From positions 1 through 34,319 of the IMG/VR virus record IMGVR_UViG_3300031521_003269: 34,319 nt of DNA. One strand, given 5' to 3'. Origin of the DNA: a virus. The position numbers were made by a program, and so were the translations under genes. This document shows positions 3,342 to 32,125 of the stretch, piece after piece (the first letter of the stretch is position 1; each line of letters begins with the position of its first letter). The notes below the pieces were generated by a model. It did not search any database. It saw only the letters and a list, made by a program, of their open reading frames with translations, and was not told the DNA's origin.

Positions 3342-4277
3342 TTAAGGCTTCAGCGAAAATCTAACTTGAGACAAATCACGATAGTCTGCAATATAGTCTG
3401 CCACATTCTTTCCTTTTAAACGATTATCAGCAAAAACTAGGCTAGACTTGATGATCTTTTTGTTGCCAAATAGATTTGTCAGATAATCTTTTGCTCTTAC
3501 AATTGTCCTTCCTTTTCGGGAAAAACTATCAACCACTAATATATTACTATACATGTTACCAGATAGTATATCTAATAGATACATGTTGTTAATGGGAGCA
3601 TCAACAGAATTGAAGATTCCACCTTGTCGCAAACGTCTATCTGCAAAGAGCGACAATATCGGCATGTTATGTCCATATTCTCTAGATATGAGATCTCCAG
3701 TCATGAGTCCCCCACGATTTACTCCAATGATACAGTCAAGATTAAATCCACCTAATGCCAGTGGCTGTTTAAGAAAATCAATCAATCTGCCAGTTTGATA
3801 ACAATAATCATTCCAGTCAATAATTTGTTTATCAGTTTCTACGGGGGTTTGCCTGATATAGCTAACTAGATTTGCACAAACTGATCCTGCTACAACCTCA
3901 AAATTGTTCATCATGACATAATTACACGATGCGATTCCGTCCAGATCAGAGGGTAAATGCAGGTCATCCGGCTTAACAATAAAAACCCTATCCAATCCGA
4001 ATTGACCAATACAAAGACCCAATTCAAAAATTATATTATCTCTTGGTATAAAGAACTTTTTGCCCCGCGACATAATCAAATCATCTTTTGTAAGTAATAT
4101 AATAGCATAGTCAAAGCTGTTTTCCATACTACTAAAATTACTAATGAAAGATTTAGAAAACCTAAAAAACCCATTCGTCCATAATTGAACGGCATATTCT
4201 TTTGGATATAAATTCTTTTGAATATACTGAGCTAACGTTAAACCTTCGGATGAAGAGAATATTATCAATCTATGCAC
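3342..4277 (-). CDS. TIR-like domain / phosphoribosyltransferase fusion (putative defence effector)
   Basis: A 311-residue soluble protein. Residues 1-115 match the predicted nucleotide-binding TIR-like family (PF10137, the domain of CBASS Cap12 TIR effectors): IIFSSSEG at the start, AIILLTKDD at 58-66, DNIIFELG at 80-87 holding the expected catalytic glutamate E85, then GLDRVFIV and LPSDLDGI. Residues about 155-300 are a type I phosphoribosyltransferase: CIIGVNRGG at 182-190 and a PRPP-loop ILVVDSFSRKGRTI at 246-259. The canonical acidic pair of the loop is D-S instead of D-D. Known TIR domains of this group cleave NAD+ or bind nucleotide signals; the PRTase could salvage or consume PRPP or bases. 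The joint function is inferred, not known. The start is GTG with AGGAG eight bases upstream. The gene is clearly more AT-rich than the phage late genes, has its own promoter, and lies past the late terminator, a typical cargo (moron) position. Confidence 0.8.
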   Translation of the reverse strand: MHRLIIFSSSEGLTLAQYIQKNLYPKEYAVQLWTNGFFRFSKSFISNFSSMENSFDYAIILLTKDDLIMSRGKKFFIPRDNIIFELGLCIGQFGLDRVFIVKPDDLHLPSDLDGIASCNYVMMNNFEVVAGSVCANLVSYIRQTPVETDKQIIDWNDYCYQTGRLIDFLKQPLALGGFNLDCIIGVNRGGLMTGDLISREYGHNMPILSLFADRRLRQGGIFNSVDAPINNMYLLDILSGNMYSNILVVDSFSRKGRTIVRAKDYLTNLFGNKKIIKSSLVFADNRLKGKNVADYIADYRDLSQVRFSLKP

Positions 4278-24994: not shown

Positions 24995-26881
24995 TCAAGA
25001 AGCTGATGACTTTCCTGCTATATTCATATATAACGGTGTGATCTCCTTGTTTTGAGAGTGCGCCTCCACAAACAAGCGTAACCGTTCCAGAGTCTCCTGT
25101 TGATCATCGGCTCCCTGCTTCTTGTAAAGGTTGGATAAACCTCTAGCATACCTTAATTCGATATCTTCGTTATTAGGGTATTGCGCAACGAGCAAACGCA
25201 ATAGTGCGATCGTTGTATCAGAGCCTTCAACATCCTGAGCATCACTCAGGTTGACCAGCCCTTTTGCATACTCCAGTGCGATCTCTTCGTTCTGTTGATG
25301 AGCCTCCAAGAGATGGTGCAACTGCTCTACTGTCGTCTGGCAAGCTTCCCTGCTTTGTTTGGCACTCAGGTTTACCAAACCCATGGCATACAGATGCGCG
25401 ATATCTTCATTCTGTGGATAGGATTCCCAGAAATGGCGCAACTGCGTCACCGCCGTCTGGCAAGCATCTCCACTCTGTTCGAAGCTCAGGTTGACCAAGC
25501 CCATAGCATATAGATGCGTGATCTCTTCATTGTACGAATAGTTTTCCCAGAAATGGCGCAACTGCCTCACCGTCGTCTGGCAAGCTTCCCCGCTTTGTTC
25601 GACGCTCAAGTTGACCAAGCACTTTGCATACTGAAGCGCGATCTCATCGTTCTGTGGATGGGCTTCCAAGAGAAGGCGCACTTGCTCCAAGGTTGTCTGG
25701 CGTTCTTTTCCGCGTTGTTCGATGCTCAGTTTAAGCAGGCACATAGCATATGTAATTGCGATCCCTTCATGCTTCGGATGGGCGTCCAAGAGAATGTGCA
25801 CTTGCTCTACAATCGCCTGACGAGCGTCCCCGCTTTGTTCGAAGCACAGGTTGAACAAACCCTTTGCATACTGAGACGCAACCAATTCGTTCTGCGGATG
25901 GGCTTCATAAAGAAGGCGCATCTGCGTCATCGTCGCCTGACGAGCCTCTCCGCTTTGCTTGAAGGTTAGGTTGAACAAGCCCGTTGCGTACTCAAACGCG
26001 ATAATTTTGCTCTGCGGATGGGTCTCCAGCAGAAGGCGCACTTGTTCCATTGTTGTCTGATGAGCTTCCGCGTTTTGTTCGATGCTCAGATTTAATAAAC
26101 CAATAGCAAATATAAGAGTGATTTCTTCGCTTTGCGGATGTGCTTCCCAGAAAACGCGCAACTTCTCCACTGTTGCTTGGCGAGCTTCCCCGCTTTGCAC
26201 GCCACATAGGTTGAGCAACCCTTGAGAATACTCCAGCGCGATCATCTGATCATAGGGATACTGTTCTGTAAGCGAATGTAGAAGAGCAATCTGGGCTGCC
26301 CCTTTCTCGGCATCCTGCTCCAAGCTCAGGTAGAATAGCCCTTTTGCATATGTCAGCTTTATCTTTTTATCGCTAGGGAACTTTTCTGTAAGTGAACACA
26401 GGATAGTAATTGTGGCTGCACAATTCTCAGCATCCCGCTCAAGGCTTGGGAAGTATAGTCCATTTGCATATTCCAGCGCGATCTTTTGATTGTTGGGGTA
26501 TTTTTCCGTGAGTGAACGCAGGAGAGCAATCGTAATTGCACAGTTCTCGGCATCTTGCTCCAAACTCAGATTAGACAGTCCCTTTGCATATACCAGCGCG
26601 ATCTTTTGATCATCGGGATATTTTTCAGTGAGCGAACGCAGGAGAGCAAACGTGGCTGCACAGTTCTCGTCATCTTGCTCCAAACTCAGATTGGACAGCC
26701 CTTTTGCATATTCTAACGCGATCACATGACTATCGGGGTATCGTTCTGCGAGCGAACGCAGGCGCGCCACTATGTCTATGCCTTTTTCAGTATCTTGTCT
26801 ATTGATCAGTTTGACCAGTCTTTGTGCATATGTCAACGCGATCTTCTGATCACCTAAGGCTATGACATCTTCATACTTCAT
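24995..26881 (-). CDS. 40-residue-repeat TPR-like protein (cargo gene)
   Basis: A 628-residue protein made almost only of about 15.5 helical repeats of 40 residues, each of the form IALEYAKGLxNLSxEQ, then a linker and TTxxLLRxLxExYPxN. This is a tetratricopeptide-like helix pair, longer than the standard 34 residues; such proteins build scaffolds that bind other proteins. There is no signal peptide, membrane segment or enzyme domain. Repeats 1-6 (EQDAENCA type) and 7-14 (QSGEARQ type) form two subfamilies. I chose the ATG at 26881 with GAGG eight bases upstream; an ATG six codons earlier has no site. The gene has its own promoter and terminator and splits the regulator from the late operon, so it looks like inserted cargo. 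A role in defence or host interaction is only a guess. Confidence 0.8.
   Translation of the reverse strand: MKYEDVIALGDQKIALTYAQRLVKLINRQDTEKGIDIVARLRSLAERYPDSHVIALEYAKGLSNLSLEQDDENCAATFALLRSLTEKYPDDQKIALVYAKGLSNLSLEQDAENCAITIALLRSLTEKYPNNQKIALEYANGLYFPSLERDAENCAATITILCSLTEKFPSDKKIKLTYAKGLFYLSLEQDAEKGAAQIALLHSLTEQYPYDQMIALEYSQGLLNLCGVQSGEARQATVEKLRVFWEAHPQSEEITLIFAIGLLNLSIEQNAEAHQTTMEQVRLLLETHPQSKIIAFEYATGLFNLTFKQSGEARQATMTQMRLLYEAHPQNELVASQYAKGLFNLCFEQSGDARQAIVEQVHILLDAHPKHEGIAITYAMCLLKLSIEQRGKERQTTLEQVRLLLEAHPQNDEIALQYAKCLVNLSVEQSGEACQTTVRQLRHFWENYSYNEEITHLYAMGLVNLSFEQSGDACQTAVTQLRHFWESYPQNEDIAHLYAMGLVNLSAKQSREACQTTVEQLHHLLEAHQQNEEIALEYAKGLVNLSDAQDVEGSDTTIALLRLLVAQYPNNEDIELRYARGLSNLYKKQGADDQQETLERLRLFVEAHSQNKEITPLYMNIAGKSSAS
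25010..26870. repeat. About 15 tandem 120-bp coding repeats
   Basis: At the DNA level the TPR-like gene repeats with a 120-base period, visible as recurring 'TTTGCATAC/ATA' and 'GCGATCT' words every 120 bases. Copies near 25,380-25,620 are nearly the same, while those near the gene start form another group. Such arrays gain and lose copies by recombination. Confidence 0.85.
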
Positions 26882-26914
26882 TGAGATATCCTCATACATT
26901 CATATTTTTAAATC

Positions 26915-27810: not shown

Positions 27811-28201
27811 TGCGCTTACCCCTCAGGTAGTTCATGATCACATCACAGGCCATTTCCCAGCCCTGGCACAAAGCCACCATGTACCCCTCTACTTTAAGTG
27901 CTTCTATCCAGCCCAACTGCTCCGGCGAAACGCGGCCACCTTTCAGGCGCTTCATTTCGATATAAAGCCCATGGCAACCGTCTCTGGCTACAGGCAGACA
28001 GAGATCAGGCACGCCTGCACGCACGCCCTGTTGCTTCAGGTGGATCGCCTCCAGCTTATGACGACTGCCACCGTTTGGAATGTGATAAAGTAAGCGCAAC
28101 TCCGGCCAGCGTGCCTGCTGCATCCGAGCCCATTGAAACAATCTCGACTGCTCAACGCTTTCGCTCGGAATAGGAGTAGCATCCATTACTCCTCGCGGCA
28201 T
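27797..28201 (-). CDS. VRR-NUC domain nuclease
   Basis: A 134-residue protein matching the VRR-NUC family (PF08774): EQSRLFQWARMQQARWPELR, LLYHIPNGGSRHKLEAIHLK, GVRAGVPDLCLPVARDG with the catalytic Asp in GVPDL, and GLYIEMKRLKGG with the E-x-K motif. These stand-alone nucleases act on DNA junctions in phage replication or recombination. The start is ATG at 28201 or, five codons later, at 28186; neither has an ideally spaced site. Confidence 0.9.
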   Translation of the reverse strand: MPRGVMDATPIPSESVEQSRLFQWARMQQARWPELRLLYHIPNGGSRHKLEAIHLKQQGVRAGVPDLCLPVARDGCHGLYIEMKRLKGGRVSPEQLGWIEALKVEGYMVALCQGWEMACDVIMNYLRGKRNDEE

Positions 28202-28246
28202 CCTCCGCCACCACCTTTCTCACATGGGTACAAGGCAAAACTTGAT

Positions 28247-28693
28247 TCATTTCGCATCCAGATCGCCACCTTCATTTTCCTCATAGAGTTTTGCGTTTTC
28301 CATATATTTTCCATAGTTCTCCGCATTCCCCTCAGACTGAGAGGTAGCCTCTGGATGATCACCGGTTAAGTCCTGCATCTGCTTATTCCGACGAATGAAA
28401 TCCACATAATCCACCGCCGTTTTGCCCCATTGGCGACACAGCACGCGCTCCCGCACTGCGGACAGGTTCTTCTCCCACCCTGGCAGGAAGCACACAAGAT
28501 CGCAAATGCTCAATGCTGCATTACCGAAACGCTGCATTTCTGCATGTCTAAGGCCTTTATTTCGCGGAAGATCATACTGATCCAGCGTGACGTACCCAAG
28601 CTCTTGCAGAACCATCGTGGCTGAAAAGCCCAGATTCTCATCCGCATGCTCATCCAGACACCCGGCGATATACACAATTGGCTTGTCCCTCAT
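28247..28693 (-). CDS. DUF4406-like (nucleoside deoxyribosyltransferase-fold) protein
   Basis: The ATG at 28693 has AAGGAG nine bases upstream and overlaps the preceding stop as ATGA; the longer frame upstream is a shadow of neighbouring genes. The 148-residue product starts KPIVYIAGCLDE, has a middle with RHAEMQRFGNAALSICDLVC followed by FLPGWEKNLSAVRERVL, and matches DUF4406, a nucleoside 2-deoxyribosyltransferase-like fold common in phages. A nucleotide-handling role is likely but unproven. The last 35 residues are hydrophilic and disordered. Confidence 0.85.
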   Translation of the reverse strand: MRDKPIVYIAGCLDEHADENLGFSATMVLQELGYVTLDQYDLPRNKGLRHAEMQRFGNAALSICDLVCFLPGWEKNLSAVRERVLCRQWGKTAVDYVDFIRRNKQMQDLTGDHPEATSQSEGNAENYGKYMENAKLYEENEGGDLDAK

Positions 28694-28917
28694 ATCCCGA
28701 TTCTCCTTATATTCATCCTTTGTGCCATGGCGCGCGCGGCCTTCAATGATCGACACAGGCGGTACCATGGAATGTCGTGCAGGCTTTCCTGCCGGATTAG
28801 GTCGAACACCCGGTACCGCCAGAATCGTCCGCCTACGATCCGGACCTCGATCGGATACCACCGCTCCCAGTAGTCCGTGACCGTCCAGCAGACCGTGGCT
28901 TTCCTCCGCCAGAACAT
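28690..28917 (-). CDS. Small conserved-type phage protein
   Basis: A 75-residue basic protein rich in Trp and Arg (ERWYPIEVRIVGGRFWRYRV). GGAGGGATAGATC precedes the ATG, and the stop overlaps the next start as ATGA. It overlaps the 3' end of the Rep gene by 85 bases. The pattern of alternating strands suggests a small beta domain. Function unknown. Confidence 0.65.
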   Translation of the reverse strand: MFWRRKATVCWTVTDYWERWYPIEVRIVGGRFWRYRVFDLIRQESLHDIPWYRLCRSLKAARAMAQRMNIRRIGI

Positions 28918-29789
28918 GATCTATCCCTCCGCTCCATTTTGGGTTCCCGTTTTCGTAACCGGACGCTGATGTACACCCAGGCAACAAAGTCGTTGCGCTT
29001 CACCTGACAGTCCAGAAACTCGCAACCCTTGTACAGCTGCCGGAAGATCGCCGGTGCACTTTCCTCCGCCGCCTGCGCAATGCGCTCCGCTTTGCGAATG
29101 CTAAGCTTCGTATCCGAAATAGTGACCGTTGGTTCCTTGAGGTTTCGGCTGCAAAAATACCGCTTCGCGCCTTCCGGCTCTTTCATCAGATATTTTGCAA
29201 GGGCTGTGTATCCGAACCGATCCGCCTGCAGGTGATCCGTCCGAACGCGTCCATTTTTCCAGATCGATTCCAGCTCATCACGTGAAAGGCCACAACAGAT
29301 CACGATGTGGTGATGCACGCGCTTCTGGCGGCTGCCTTCCCGCTTGCCTTCCGATACGCCCATGTAGCGCGGCTGGGGTAACCCGGCTTTGCGGCAGGCA
29401 TACTTGACGCGCCGGAGGTAGTTCTGCACATCCACCCGCGCCTGTCCGGCATCCGGCAGGAAGTCATCCGCATAGGTGAGATCAATGCGGTAATCCAGAT
29501 CGCAGAAGTTGGTGTTCATTTTCCGCTCGAAATGCTTCCGGGCATTCTCGGCATTCGCCCGGGCGATAGCCGCCGTCGATTTCTTCACCGGCGTGCCATC
29601 CGGCATCGTGGGTGCGGTCGACCAGATCGGATATACCATTACTTCGATCTGCTCACCTGCCCGGATGGTTTTCACCCGGTATCCGAGCACCGAGCCTTCC
29701 GACTTCATCACCCTGGGTGGCATCCGGTCCTCCGGTGATGTGCACTCAATATCAAAAAGCTCCAGCCAGTTTTCCGATGAATACCGCAT
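28833..29789 (-). CDS. HUH-type replication initiator (Rep, ORF2/G2P-like)
   Basis: A 318-residue protein with rolling-circle Rep motifs: DLTYADDFLPD (motif 1, about 103-113), the metal-binding HHHIVI (159-164) and a catalytic-tyrosine region YTALAKYLMKEP with Tyr194 and Lys199. It would nick a specific site in the phage origin and stay joined to the 5' end. Rep proteins of this type are known from small Gram-positive elements and some Clostridia prophages. The last 35 residues, in the overlap with the next gene, are an Arg/Ser/Gly-rich tail. GGAGGGG precedes the ATG. No helicase is seen nearby, so the host would provide it. Confidence 0.85.
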   Translation of the reverse strand: MRYSSENWLELFDIECTSPEDRMPPRVMKSEGSVLGYRVKTIRAGEQIEVMVYPIWSTAPTMPDGTPVKKSTAAIARANAENARKHFERKMNTNFCDLDYRIDLTYADDFLPDAGQARVDVQNYLRRVKYACRKAGLPQPRYMGVSEGKREGSRQKRVHHHIVICCGLSRDELESIWKNGRVRTDHLQADRFGYTALAKYLMKEPEGAKRYFCSRNLKEPTVTISDTKLSIRKAERIAQAAEESAPAIFRQLYKGCEFLDCQVKRNDFVAWVYISVRLRKREPKMERRDRSCSGGGKPRSAGRSRTTGSGGIRSRSGS

Positions 29790-30122
29790 GGTACCCCTCC
29801 CCAGCTTATCAGGGGGCGCTGCCCCTCACCCCGCTGGGGCTTCTTCGGCCCCAGACCCCATCAGTACGGCTGCTCGCGCCTGCGGCGCGTGGGGCGGCTG
29901 TGCCGCCTGCCTGACTGCGTATTGATGGGATGAAGAATGCTCCTCCGGAGTGCGGGGTTCGCCGCAAATCTAATACCTATTACGAGGCCGCATACGCGCT
30001 CGAAAGCGCCTGTGATTGACACACCACGCTCCTTTTGCTAAAATAGAAGCGTGGTCAGGTTGTGTGATTGACCGTAAGCCTTTGGTTAGGCGCTGCCGGG
30101 TGTAAGCCGACAGCGCCTTGTT
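29790..30122. other. Non-coding region next to Rep: origin candidate and small RNA locus
   Basis: These 333 bases contain no convincing gene. They hold, in order, GC-rich sequence with inverted repeats (GCCCCTCACCCCGCTGGGGC near 29820-29840 and CGCGCCTGCGGCGCG near 29875-29889), a plus-strand promoter, a CCACGCT/AGCGTGG dyad, two copies of TGTGATTGAC (30011-30020 and 30063-30072) and a terminator hairpin. The position beside an HUH Rep gene makes it the best place for the nicking origin. Confidence 0.5.
30016..30044 (+). promoter_or_regulatory. Plus-strand promoter for a small RNA
   Basis: A perfect -35 TTGACA (30016-30021), 17 bases, and a -10 TAAAAT (30039-30044), facing against all neighbouring genes. 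The dyad CCACGCT (30024-30030) / AGCGTGG (30048-30054) surrounds the -10 and the start, a typical place for a repressor operator. Confidence 0.7.
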
Positions 30123-30125
30123 TTA
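30051..30125 (+). ncRNA. Predicted ~75-nt small RNA
   Basis: The start near 30051 follows the promoter; the end is the terminator hairpin, in which AGGCGCTG (30088-30095) pairs with CAGCGCCT (30111-30118), extended by CGG/CCG around a seven-base loop and followed by TGTTTTA. No open frame with a ribosome binding site lies inside. It faces convergent to the minus-strand gene ending at 30123 and so may also end that transcript or act on it. A replication-control RNA is a natural guess next to Rep. No homology can be claimed. Confidence 0.5.
30088..30125 (+). terminator. Terminator of the small RNA
   Basis: An eight-pair GC-rich stem (30088-30095 with 30111-30118), a mismatch and three more pairs, then TTGTTTTA. 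On the minus strand no T-tract follows the hairpin, so it acts mainly on plus-strand transcripts. Confidence 0.65.
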
Positions 30126-30323
30126 TGCTCTGGTTTGCTCTCTGATTACCTTTACATAAGCCTCCACCATACTGGGCGGATCCACCAGAACCAGCTGCAC
30201 CGTATTGGATGGATTCATGCCGTACCGATCACACAGATAGCTCCACAGGTTGCTGGAGCACTCACTGCAGCTGATCACCAGTGAACCTGGCTTCTGCAGC
30301 GGAACGATTATCCTTTGAATCAA
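30123..30323 (-). CDS. Small phage protein of unknown function
   Basis: A 66-residue product if started at the TTG at 30323, which has AGGGAG nine bases upstream. The sequence IVPLQKPGSLVISCSECSSN, then LWSYLCDRYGMNPSNTV and VEAYVKVIREQTRA, looks like a real folded protein. A longer frame upstream overlaps the zinc-binding gene in another frame and is probably a shadow. Family unknown. The start choice is uncertain. Confidence 0.5.
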   Translation of the reverse strand: MIQRIIVPLQKPGSLVISCSECSSNLWSYLCDRYGMNPSNTVQLVLVDPPSMVEAYVKVIREQTRA

Positions 30324-30474
30324 TTGTGGAAGCTCCCTTCCGTACCAGCGGAGGACACCGCATCCCACACTCCTCCACTTCCGTGCATTTGATAAAGGCT
30401 GCGTACTCACGCCCGATGACGTTGTAGTGTTGCGGCAGATGATAATCGCAGCCGGTGCAAATCTTTGCAGCCAT
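30262..30474 (-). CDS. Small zinc-ribbon-like protein
   Basis: A 70-residue protein: MAAKICTGCDYHLPQHYNVI, then FIKCTEVEECGMRCPPLV. The CxxC pair and the later cysteines suggest a zinc site. GGAGTGAT precedes the ATG, and the start overlaps the stop of the SH3 gene region. Found in the early operon; role unknown. Confidence 0.6.
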   Translation of the reverse strand: MAAKICTGCDYHLPQHYNVIGREYAAFIKCTEVEECGMRCPPLVRKGASTIDSKDNRSAAEARFTGDQLQ

Positions 30475-30475
30475 A

Positions 30476-31057
30476 TCACTCCACCGCCGATAAATAACCA
30501 GCCATGATAAAGCCACTCTCAACACGCGCCCAGCGTTCACCATCCATGGTGACGAAGCCAAGCACAGACACTGTCGCGCCTTTACGAAGCTTCCTCACCG
30601 CCATCGCATGATCGCTTGGAAGTTTACGTACACGAAGATGATTAACCGTCGTGGTATATTCGACCAGCTCGCTGGGGAGGGTGTCCAGCAGATACTCCAC
30701 CCGGCAGTAACCGGAATCACCAGCTCGGCCAATCTCCGCCCAGCCGTTCTTGTCTACCGAGTACACATCCAGCGCGTCGCCACGCTCCATGCGGATTGTC
30801 ACCGGCGCGTCTCCGGAGGGGCGCTCACGGATGTTGAGCCAGCTCTCCTCCGCCACATACACCACCATGCCTGTCGGTGACTGCTCCTCCTCGGCATTGG
30901 CAGCAGACACGATCAACAGCAAGGCAAGCATCACCACAATGGCAAGTGCCGTGACCGCGACGCAGATGCGGCTGGTGAACGGACGCATAATCACCTCTGT
31001 CATGGTGCGCATCCTGCGCTTCTCGGCGCGGCAACGTTGCCAGTATTTAAACAACAT
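30476..31057 (-). CDS. Membrane-anchored or secreted protein with two SH3b domains
   Basis: A 193-residue protein. The basic start is followed by a hydrophobic segment (about residues 31-53) with an ANA-E site, so it is exported or anchored. Two bacterial SH3 domains follow: MVVYVAEESWLNIRERPSGD (about 63-120) and YTTTVNHLRVRKLPSDHAMA (about 133-190). Such domains bind the cell wall. In an early, lysogenic-side operon this could alter the host surface, for example to block superinfection, but that is inference. The ATG at 31057 has GAGGAG eight bases upstream; a GTG three codons earlier is less good. Confidence 0.75.
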   Translation of the reverse strand: MLFKYWQRCRAEKRRMRTMTEVIMRPFTSRICVAVTALAIVVMLALLLIVSAANAEEEQSPTGMVVYVAEESWLNIRERPSGDAPVTIRMERGDALDVYSVDKNGWAEIGRAGDSGYCRVEYLLDTLPSELVEYTTTVNHLRVRKLPSDHAMAVRKLRKGATVSVLGFVTMDGERWARVESGFIMAGYLSAVE

Positions 31058-31074
31058 GAGATACACTCCTCTCG

Positions 31075-31326
31075 TTAGCGGGTCGGTGCATCAGGCAGCT
31101 GCTTGCAGCATTTGGCACAGATGCGCTTGCCCCGAAAGAGCGTCGTACCCTGCGTTTCCCCACAGAAGATGCAGCCAGGCGCATACTTGCGCAGGATGAT
31201 CTGATCGTCCTCCGTGAAAATTTCAATCGAATCCTTCACATCGATGTTCAGCACATGGCGGAGTTCAATGGGAATTACGATACGACCAAGGTTATCGAGT
31301 TTACGCACAATACCGGTGGATTTCAT
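31075..31326 (-). CDS. AbrB-family regulator with C-terminal zinc ribbon
   Basis: An 83-residue protein. Residues 1-50 are a SpoVT/AbrB swapped-hairpin DNA-binding domain (KSTGIVRKLDNLGRIVIPIE, then LRHVLNIDVKDSIEIF). Residues 51-76 add CIFCGETQG and ICAKC, a four-cysteine zinc ribbon. It probably controls early phage or host transition-state genes. The ATG at 31326 has AAGGAA nine bases upstream, and the gene directly follows a small upstream gene. Confidence 0.88.
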   Translation of the reverse strand: MKSTGIVRKLDNLGRIVIPIELRHVLNIDVKDSIEIFTEDDQIILRKYAPGCIFCGETQGTTLFRGKRICAKCCKQLPDAPTR

Positions 31327-31340
31327 AAGAACCATTCCTT

Positions 31341-31622
31341 TCATTCATCGCTTACGGCCCGCAAGCCGCGTACATATTTGGGCGACCGGTATGCCCGGCC
31401 CAGCAGATCATCAATCTCATCCATCACGCGCTCGGGCTTTTCTACTGGCAACACTTCGCCAACCGTAACACCGCGATACTGGACGAAGAACCGACTATGA
31501 TACACTCCGAGCCGATCTGGAAAAAACGTGCCGGATACGCACCAGCCGGGCAGGGATTTGCAAAACCAGTGGAACGAGCCGGTAGCGCGCTCCCAGTGGC
31601 CGTACCGATCAGGAACCATCAT
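31341..31622 (-). CDS. Small hypothetical phage protein
   Basis: A 93-residue protein rich in aromatic residues (GHWERATGSFHWFCKSLPGW, YHSRFFVQYRGVTV) with a helical C-terminus (KPERVMDEIDDLLGRA). GGAGGTG lies before the ATG at 31622. No recognised family; the compact early operon and good site support a real gene. Confidence 0.6.
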   Translation of the reverse strand: MMVPDRYGHWERATGSFHWFCKSLPGWCVSGTFFPDRLGVYHSRFFVQYRGVTVGEVLPVEKPERVMDEIDDLLGRAYRSPKYVRGLRAVSDE

Positions 31623-31690
31623 GCCCATCACCTCCTGTAAGCGACAAACTCCGGGGTCAGCTTCTGATTCTGCCTTTTCTGAGCTGGTTT

Positions 31691-31903
31691 CTACGGCATG
31701 GGGATCACGTTACGCTCATCCAGATTCAGCCGCCCCAGGCAGTAGGCATCCAGCGTATCCTCCGTAACGCGGAGGTTCTGCTTTTTCGCCCCAGCAGGTG
31801 AAAGGTTGATATGCGGCATTCGGCGCATGATCTCAAGGGTTTTGGTGCGACTATGCAGTCGCAGGCGGGTTTGTACTTCGCTGGCATCCAACAGGGTGAC
31901 CAT
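31691..31903 (-). CDS. Excisionase-like / MerR-type HTH protein
   Basis: A 70-residue protein with the pattern of phage excisionases: an N-terminal winged helix reading LLDASEVQTRLRLHSRTKTLEIM, then MPHINLSPAGAKKQNLRVTE and DTLDAYCLGR. AAAGGAG precedes the ATG at a good distance. It follows the Cro-like gene in the lytic direction. Its job would be to help integrase in excision; with a broken integrase this may not work now. Confidence 0.7.
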   Translation of the reverse strand: MVTLLDASEVQTRLRLHSRTKTLEIMRRMPHINLSPAGAKKQNLRVTEDTLDAYCLGRLNLDERNVIPMP

Positions 31904-31921
31904 GTGAAAACTCCTTTCTGC

Positions 31922-32125
31922 TTAGCTGGCTTTGGTTTGAATGAACAGCTCTGCGCTAACCCCAAGCGCCTTACAAATCGCGCTGAGATCGTCGGCATAC
32001 ATGGTTCGTTTTCCATTCAACATTGCATTGAACGTCACGTTGGGAATGTTCGCCGCTTTTGCAATGGAGATTTGCTTCAAATGGTGGTCGTCAATGTAAG
32101 CTCGAACCATTTCATGGACTCGCAT
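31922..32125 (-). CDS. Cro-like XRE-family regulator
   Basis: A 67-residue protein with a lambda-type HTH: MVRAYIDDHHLKQISIAKAA, NIPNVTFNAMLNGKRTMYAD, then LSAICKALGVSAELFI. GAAGGGAGAGG lies before the ATG at 32125. It is transcribed away from the CI-like repressor from a promoter at 32169-32197, as expected for Cro. Confidence 0.85.
   Translation of the reverse strand: MRVHEMVRAYIDDHHLKQISIAKAANIPNVTFNAMLNGKRTMYADDLSAICKALGVSAELFIQTKAS

Follow-up and report, generated by a model that had tools for sequence, protein, structure and literature searches.

A small RNA of about 70 nt is predicted opposite the rep operon of the prophage analysed here, upstream of rep, and the antisense promoter-terminator module that would produce it recurs beside related initiators in at least 51 of 97 loci. 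With moderate confidence, we read it as a counter-transcribed RNA with a damping effect on the Rep operon, and our results suggest that a switch of this kind, apparently undescribed so far, is widespread in the control of rolling-circle replication in phages. The window, by which we mean the whole stretch of DNA that was analysed, comprises all 34,319 bases of a virus record, and the early operon of the prophage occupies its minus strand.

The predicted small RNA and its neighbourhood

By profile and motif, the adjacent Rep is a member of the PF23343 / PHROG 3584 family. Profile searches gave 39.6 bits against Pfam PF23343, above the curated cutoff of 27.8, and 219 bits against PHROG 3584 (replication initiation protein), and the HxH metal motif (H159, H161) and the catalytic tyrosine Y200 show no variation among 24 Rep sequences. 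The AlphaFold model of Rep (mean pLDDT 81) is matched by predicted structures of viral replication-associated proteins with E down to 3e-24, and structure comparison with solved structures gave no significant match. Phage DNA similar to the window was not found. The features on which the argument rests are as follows:

28833-29789, minus strand: Rep gene, an HUH-type initiator of PF23343 and PHROG 3584 with H159/H161 and Y200 invariant
29790-30122, minus strand: untranslated leader of 333 bases between the upstream gene and rep, in which no rep-sense promoter was found
29970-29987, minus strand: probable nick motif of the double-strand origin, rep-sense CCTCG/TAATAGGTATTAG, unique in the window
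29996-30009: small hairpin GCGC-TCGAAA-GCGC, between the nick motif and the promoter
30011-30020, plus strand: first copy of TGTGATTGAC, overlapping the -35 and part of an extended stem
30016-30044, plus strand: sigma70-type promoter of the small RNA, TTGACA-17-TAAAAT, with an extended -10 TG at 30036-30037
30023-30055: dyad of ACCACGCT (30023-30030) and AGCGTGGT (30048-30055), enclosing the -10
30051-30124, plus strand: predicted small RNA of about 70-74 nt, antisense to the rep leader, its presumed start placed to within +/-2 nt
30063-30072, plus strand: second copy of TGTGATTGAC, inside the RNA and 52 from the first
30088-30124, plus strand: GC-rich intrinsic terminator, stem 30088-30099/30107-30118 followed by TGTTTT
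30123-30479, minus strand: upstream gene of the same early operon, 118 codons, with its stop codon right at the end of the small RNA (overlap about 2 nt)

The first-pass annotation had described a plus-strand promoter followed by a terminator, and both are present. The -35 (TTGACA, 30016-30021) and the -10 (TAAAAT, 30039-30044) are separated by a 17-base spacer and match the consensus at 11 of 12 positions; this was the only sigma70-like site found on either strand from 28000 to 32000, and the exact pattern TTGACA-N16-18-TAAAAT occurs twice in the 34 kb, against 0.01 expected. The terminator ends 74 nt past the -10. It is missing from the terminator-scan list; its stem stands in the inverted-repeat listing, and the rule that joins promoters with terminators recovers the pair. 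The predicted RNA folds with a z of -2.3 and has no Rfam match at gathering thresholds. The best sub-threshold hits are unrelated families, and the weak hits to the R1162 antisense RNA and Burkholderia ncS01 probably reflect the GC hairpin only. It had also been stated that no frame lies between promoter and terminator, which is accurate apart from open reading frames of 25-29 codons, the only ones there, and that the RNA runs opposite to all nearby genes, which holds for about 28.2-32.2 kb and fails for the CI-like repressor and integrase genes, located further right on the plus strand.

Some other features of the window deserve mention. A second promoter-terminator pair, TTGTGT-17-TATAAT followed by GCCCCGTTTCCTGT..GCAGGAAGCGGGGT-TTTT, is located on the minus strand from ~33135 to 33020, between the CI-like repressor and integrase genes, and judging from its sequence could be another small RNA or merely a two-way terminator. 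Just upstream of the rep start, a GC-rich block with short hairpins (29795-29900) is well conserved in locus L001, and for a 47-bp part of it there is a further match on a second contig (L010) from that host genome. The minus-strand gene at 24995-26899 encodes a 634-codon protein with many repeats of ~45 residues (EYAKGLxNLS) and is apparently a cargo gene within the prophage, and a 311-codon protein encoded at 3342-4277 on the minus strand, in the low-GC left part, resembles by residues alone a fusion of TIR-like and phosphoribosyltransferase parts and is possibly a defence gene.

Recurrence of the module and pairing of its arms

Relatives of Rep were gathered from genomes, viral contigs, and phage records; a scan of genome contigs with two peptide patterns gave one locus, and the relatives then came from genome and viral-contig searches. 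This resulted in 97 non-redundant loci, with Reps that are mostly 30-40% identical. A module was scored where a promoter matching at 8 or more of 12 positions, with a spacer of 16-18, was followed by a terminator ending 45-100 nt further, within 500 bp of rep. By this measure the rep-antisense strand carries a module in at least 51 of the loci, compared with 3 on the sense strand and about 1 (0-2) in ten sets of dinucleotide shuffles, and the density of modules is 0.79 per kb upstream of rep versus 0.021 elsewhere in the same loci, a 37-fold difference. Three hits among these 51 (L034, L062, L095) appeared to be spurious, and later tests were run without them. The count of 51 is probably a lower bound, because the module is visible by eye in several loci that scored negative (L029, L072, L082, L059, L012, and L061, among others). 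The presence of this antisense module in so many relatives supports the original proposal of a small RNA that runs opposite the Rep operon and is linked to rolling-circle replication.

The sequence of the module turns over among relatives and its architecture stays. The distance from the -10 to the end of the terminator is nearly constant, mostly 64-81 nt, and the promoter consensus common to the relatives is TTGACT with an extended TGnTATAAT. In the closest relative, Clostridiales bacterium Firm_12 (L001/L008), whose Rep is 83% identical, the leader is the same and every element is present; named phages with the module include Terrisporobacter phage TPDSL_ph2 and the Latilactobacillus phages TMW 1.46 P2 and TMW 1.1381 P1. 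In TMW 1.46 P2, a phage of Latilactobacillus sakei that was obtained by induction, the promoter reads TTGACT-18-TATAAT and both the terminator and the nick motif described below are present. The distance between the module and the start of rep varies from 100 to 600 nt.

The enclosing dyad and the repeat of TGTGATTGAC were likewise found as described. The left arm of the dyad is in the promoter spacer, the right arm is at the 5' end of the RNA, and the -10 is in the loop; in most modules of the relatives, too, the promoter spacer, sometimes together with the -35, can pair with a stretch inside the RNA body so that the -10 falls between the two arms, and the arm sequences are unrelated between families. 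Lack of conserved stem pairs in relatives had been named as grounds for rejecting the prediction, and the pairing is conserved: in 48 loci, arms paired with their own partners reached a mean of -14.4 kcal/mol versus -8.0 with swapped partners (Wilcoxon p=3e-12, although relatedness of the loci makes this p overstate their independence), and the first set of 19 loci gave p=6e-6. Single loci vary, with own pairing beating at least 95% of the swaps in 23 of the 48. The extended stem of the window also shows a compensatory change, CACAC/GTGTG becoming CGCAC/GTGCG in L001/L008, and further compensatory changes occur in the hairpin arms of alignable groups. The notion that the promoter-like and terminator-like sequences stand together by chance and have no function is refuted as a general explanation by the enrichment of the module and the covariation of the arms in relatives, and for the window itself we consider it extremely improbable.

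Loop size, arm spacing, and offset vary widely among relatives, which suggests that the dyad is probably a hairpin formed in single strands and not an operator. The first-pass annotation had called it operator-like, and a site around the -10 at which CI, a Cro-like or AbrB-like protein, or Rep binds and switches the small RNA would agree with the enclosure of the -10 in the window and with the candidate regulator genes (CI, Cro-like, AbrB-like, by profile searches) encoded next door. However, a dimer site would keep the spacing of its half-sites, and here both spacing and offset differ from relative to relative; moreover, the pairing joins the promoter spacer to the RNA body, as in a hairpin, so that we regard the operator as very improbable. 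Both strands of the dyad pair equally well, and the functional single strand may be either the rep-sense mRNA leader or single-stranded DNA. Wobble pairs give no strand preference once both strands are treated alike; counts from a one-strand consensus fold carry a bias and did not enter this comparison.

A candidate nick site beside the module

Upstream of rep in 70 of the 97 loci there is a rep-sense motif CYTG/TAATRGGTATTA, which is found in 0 cases on the other strand and in 0.1 among shuffles. Its consensus is GnCCTtG-TAatgGgTATTAAc; no other motif next to a hairpin keeps its sequence across the Reps. In the relatives, a small hairpin tends to precede the motif, in the interval between it and the promoter (mean z -1.4, n=38). 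The motif resembles the CTTG/ATA nick sites of phiX174 and pC194, and for this reason we suggest that Rep may cut the rep-sense strand after CTYG, which in the window would fall between 29983 and 29982 of the minus strand. The motif at 29970-29987 is thus the likely nick site of Rep, and since it is separate from the dyads, the earlier suggestion that these form the nicking origin is probably wrong: the motif is outside the 30011-30125 element and inside the 29790-30125 segment that had been put forward for a nicking test. The gap between module and motif is 25-56 bp in most loci (mostly 25-34 or 42-56) and 12 to 56 bp overall, a range that rules out a fixed helical phasing of the nick motif against the promoter.

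This proximity brings in a second reading, which we hold tentatively and consider rather unlikely, in which transcription from the promoter, or the RNA itself, has a direct part in replication, either as an RNA polymerase-primed single-strand origin or because negative supercoiling behind the polymerase opens the nick site. Nick motif, hairpin, promoter, dyad, and terminator might then be one compact origin cassette in which the polymerase controls nicking or the start of the second strand, a possibility that we rate equally low. The RNA would be templated by the displaced strand if the rep-sense CTTG/TAAT site is nicked, and it lies just 5' of that site; the distance from the module to the nick motif is tighter than that to rep, and the hairpin forms equally well on both strands. 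The polymerase-primed single-strand origins ssoA and ssoU and the complementary-strand origin of M13 share the potential for hairpins and, should the rep-sense site be the one that is nicked, also the orientation and the position 5' of the nick site. Unlike these origins, however, the module has a near-consensus promoter suited to ordinary duplex DNA and a discrete, terminated RNA of 70 nt, and it is absent from some relatives. In addition, the folded single strand would hold the -10 in a loop and not in a double-stranded promoter, although other folds are possible. Known primers are about 20 nt long, which a self-terminated 70-nt RNA exceeds. For lambda OOP, a role as primer had at one time been put forward and was later excluded (PMC12197685). 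Several Reps (L090, L096, L098, L102, L106) have the same nick motif without the module, which fits a regulator rather than a core part of the origin.

Against a counter-transcribed RNA stands the fact that the module is nearer to the nick motif than to the rep start and that genes intervene in three loci. A gene separates the module from rep in L012, and the nick motif from rep in L056 and L082, the module of L056 itself not being clear. This closeness and the intervening genes would make more sense if the module had a role at the origin as well. The intervening genes of the three loci have 150-190 codons and encode a conserved ending like 'KKAYxRTALYNxxFE'. We also observed that in L078, ~120 bp upstream of rep, the nick motif, the hairpin, and the terminator-like stem are kept and the antisense promoter is seemingly missing, which from the sequence is possibly a natural loss of the RNA, and that a 34-kb plasmid of Paraclostridium sordellii (unnamed3, L007), perhaps a phage-plasmid, encodes a related Rep and has a TAGTACCTATTACGAGG motif without a clear promoter of the small RNA.

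Possible control of Rep by a counter-transcribed RNA

We propose that the plus-strand promoter yields a self-terminating RNA of ~70 nt which would be complementary over its whole length to the untranslated leader in the early-operon mRNA that carries rep. Between the module and rep, rep-sense promoters show no excess (5 loci versus 9.9 expected). Transcription therefore most likely enters rep from upstream, and the rep mRNA would include the complement of the RNA. Pairing of the RNA with the nascent leader may lead to cleavage or early loss of the mRNA and thereby to a low level of Rep, which would be held low in the lysogen and again as the copy number rises after induction. The leader arm that is complementary to the 5' part of the RNA should also pair with the arm templated by the promoter spacer. 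As the leader hairpin would compete for the target arm, the RNA would have to bind before this hairpin forms, which may leave it a brief interval while the leader is being transcribed. The expected cleavage by Rep lies about 30 bp from the promoter on its rep-proximal side, at CCTCG/TAATAGGTATTA.

Damping by cleavage or loss of the mRNA is favoured because the layout is that of the counter-transcribed RNAs of rolling-circle plasmids and the position and size are those of lambda OOP. Plasmid precedents include the antisense RNAs of pT181 (87 nt) and pSK41 (83 nt) (PMC5703833); RNAI of pT181, RNAII of pMV158, and RNAI of the theta plasmid pSK41 are short RNAs from a promoter opposite rep and complementary to its leader (PMC5703833). 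In contrast to these plasmid systems, the module described here belongs to tailed temperate phages, its hairpin encloses the antisense -10, it is tied to a nick motif, and no downstream attenuator, overlap with the ribosome site, or refolding was seen. Attenuation of the pT181/pIP501 type was considered and rejected, with a rep-sense terminator after the hairpin in 2 of 48 loci versus 0.65 by chance, and so was blocking or refolding of the ribosome site of the pMV158/pSK41 type, as the module is 100-416 nt away from the rep start in the loci measured and the accessibility of the start site was unchanged with the RNA bound (p=0.97, 30 loci). A search for a third pairing partner of either hairpin arm found none. 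With no terminator, accessibility change, or third partner, the known attenuation and ribosome-blocking designs are not visible.

Lambda OOP (pO-oop-tO) is 77 nt long, terminates itself, and is located between cII and O, the initiator gene (PMC3349717), and according to the account given there it acts by RNase III-dependent cleavage of the cII-O mRNA (Krinke and Wulff 1990, via PMC3349717). The likeness covers the length of ~77 nt, the self-termination, the orientation opposite the early operon, the place between an upstream gene and the initiator gene, and the nearness to the origin. There are also differences: lambda uses theta replication by O/P, whereas the window encodes a rolling-circle-type Rep; OOP overlaps cII by 55 nt, whereas the RNA of the window overlaps its upstream gene by about 2 nt; and the two are not joined by an Rfam match. 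Lambda pO lowers transcription from pR (PMC3985674), and in the window, too, a strong promoter faces the operon, so that the act of antisense transcription, and not the RNA, might hinder readthrough into rep. This would leave unexplained the covarying arms that reach into the body of the RNA and its nearly fixed length, and we consider convergent transcription improbable as the main effect of the module.

In the papers searched, mostly from outside the subscription journals, no antisense RNA is described for the rolling-circle initiator of a tailed phage. Rolling-circle and clostridial cases are also absent from a 2025 review on small RNAs of phages, and the records of REP_ORF2-G2P (PF23343) and PHROG 3584 concern the protein only, our searches having brought up no RNA associated with this family. 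What appears to be new here is an antisense replication-control RNA in temperate tailed phages, with a hairpin that encloses its promoter and an attachment to a nick motif. The papers found do not say how Rep is kept in check in temperate tailed phages whose rolling-circle initiators are plasmid-like, and a conserved antisense RNA together with a candidate nick motif in dozens of related prophages would give this initiator family both its control element and its origin. If the module is part of the origin, it would represent a type of phage origin in which an antisense RNA and a nick site form one unit. Our reading of the RNA as a counter-transcribed regulator of Rep predicts that such phages use plasmid-style copy control.
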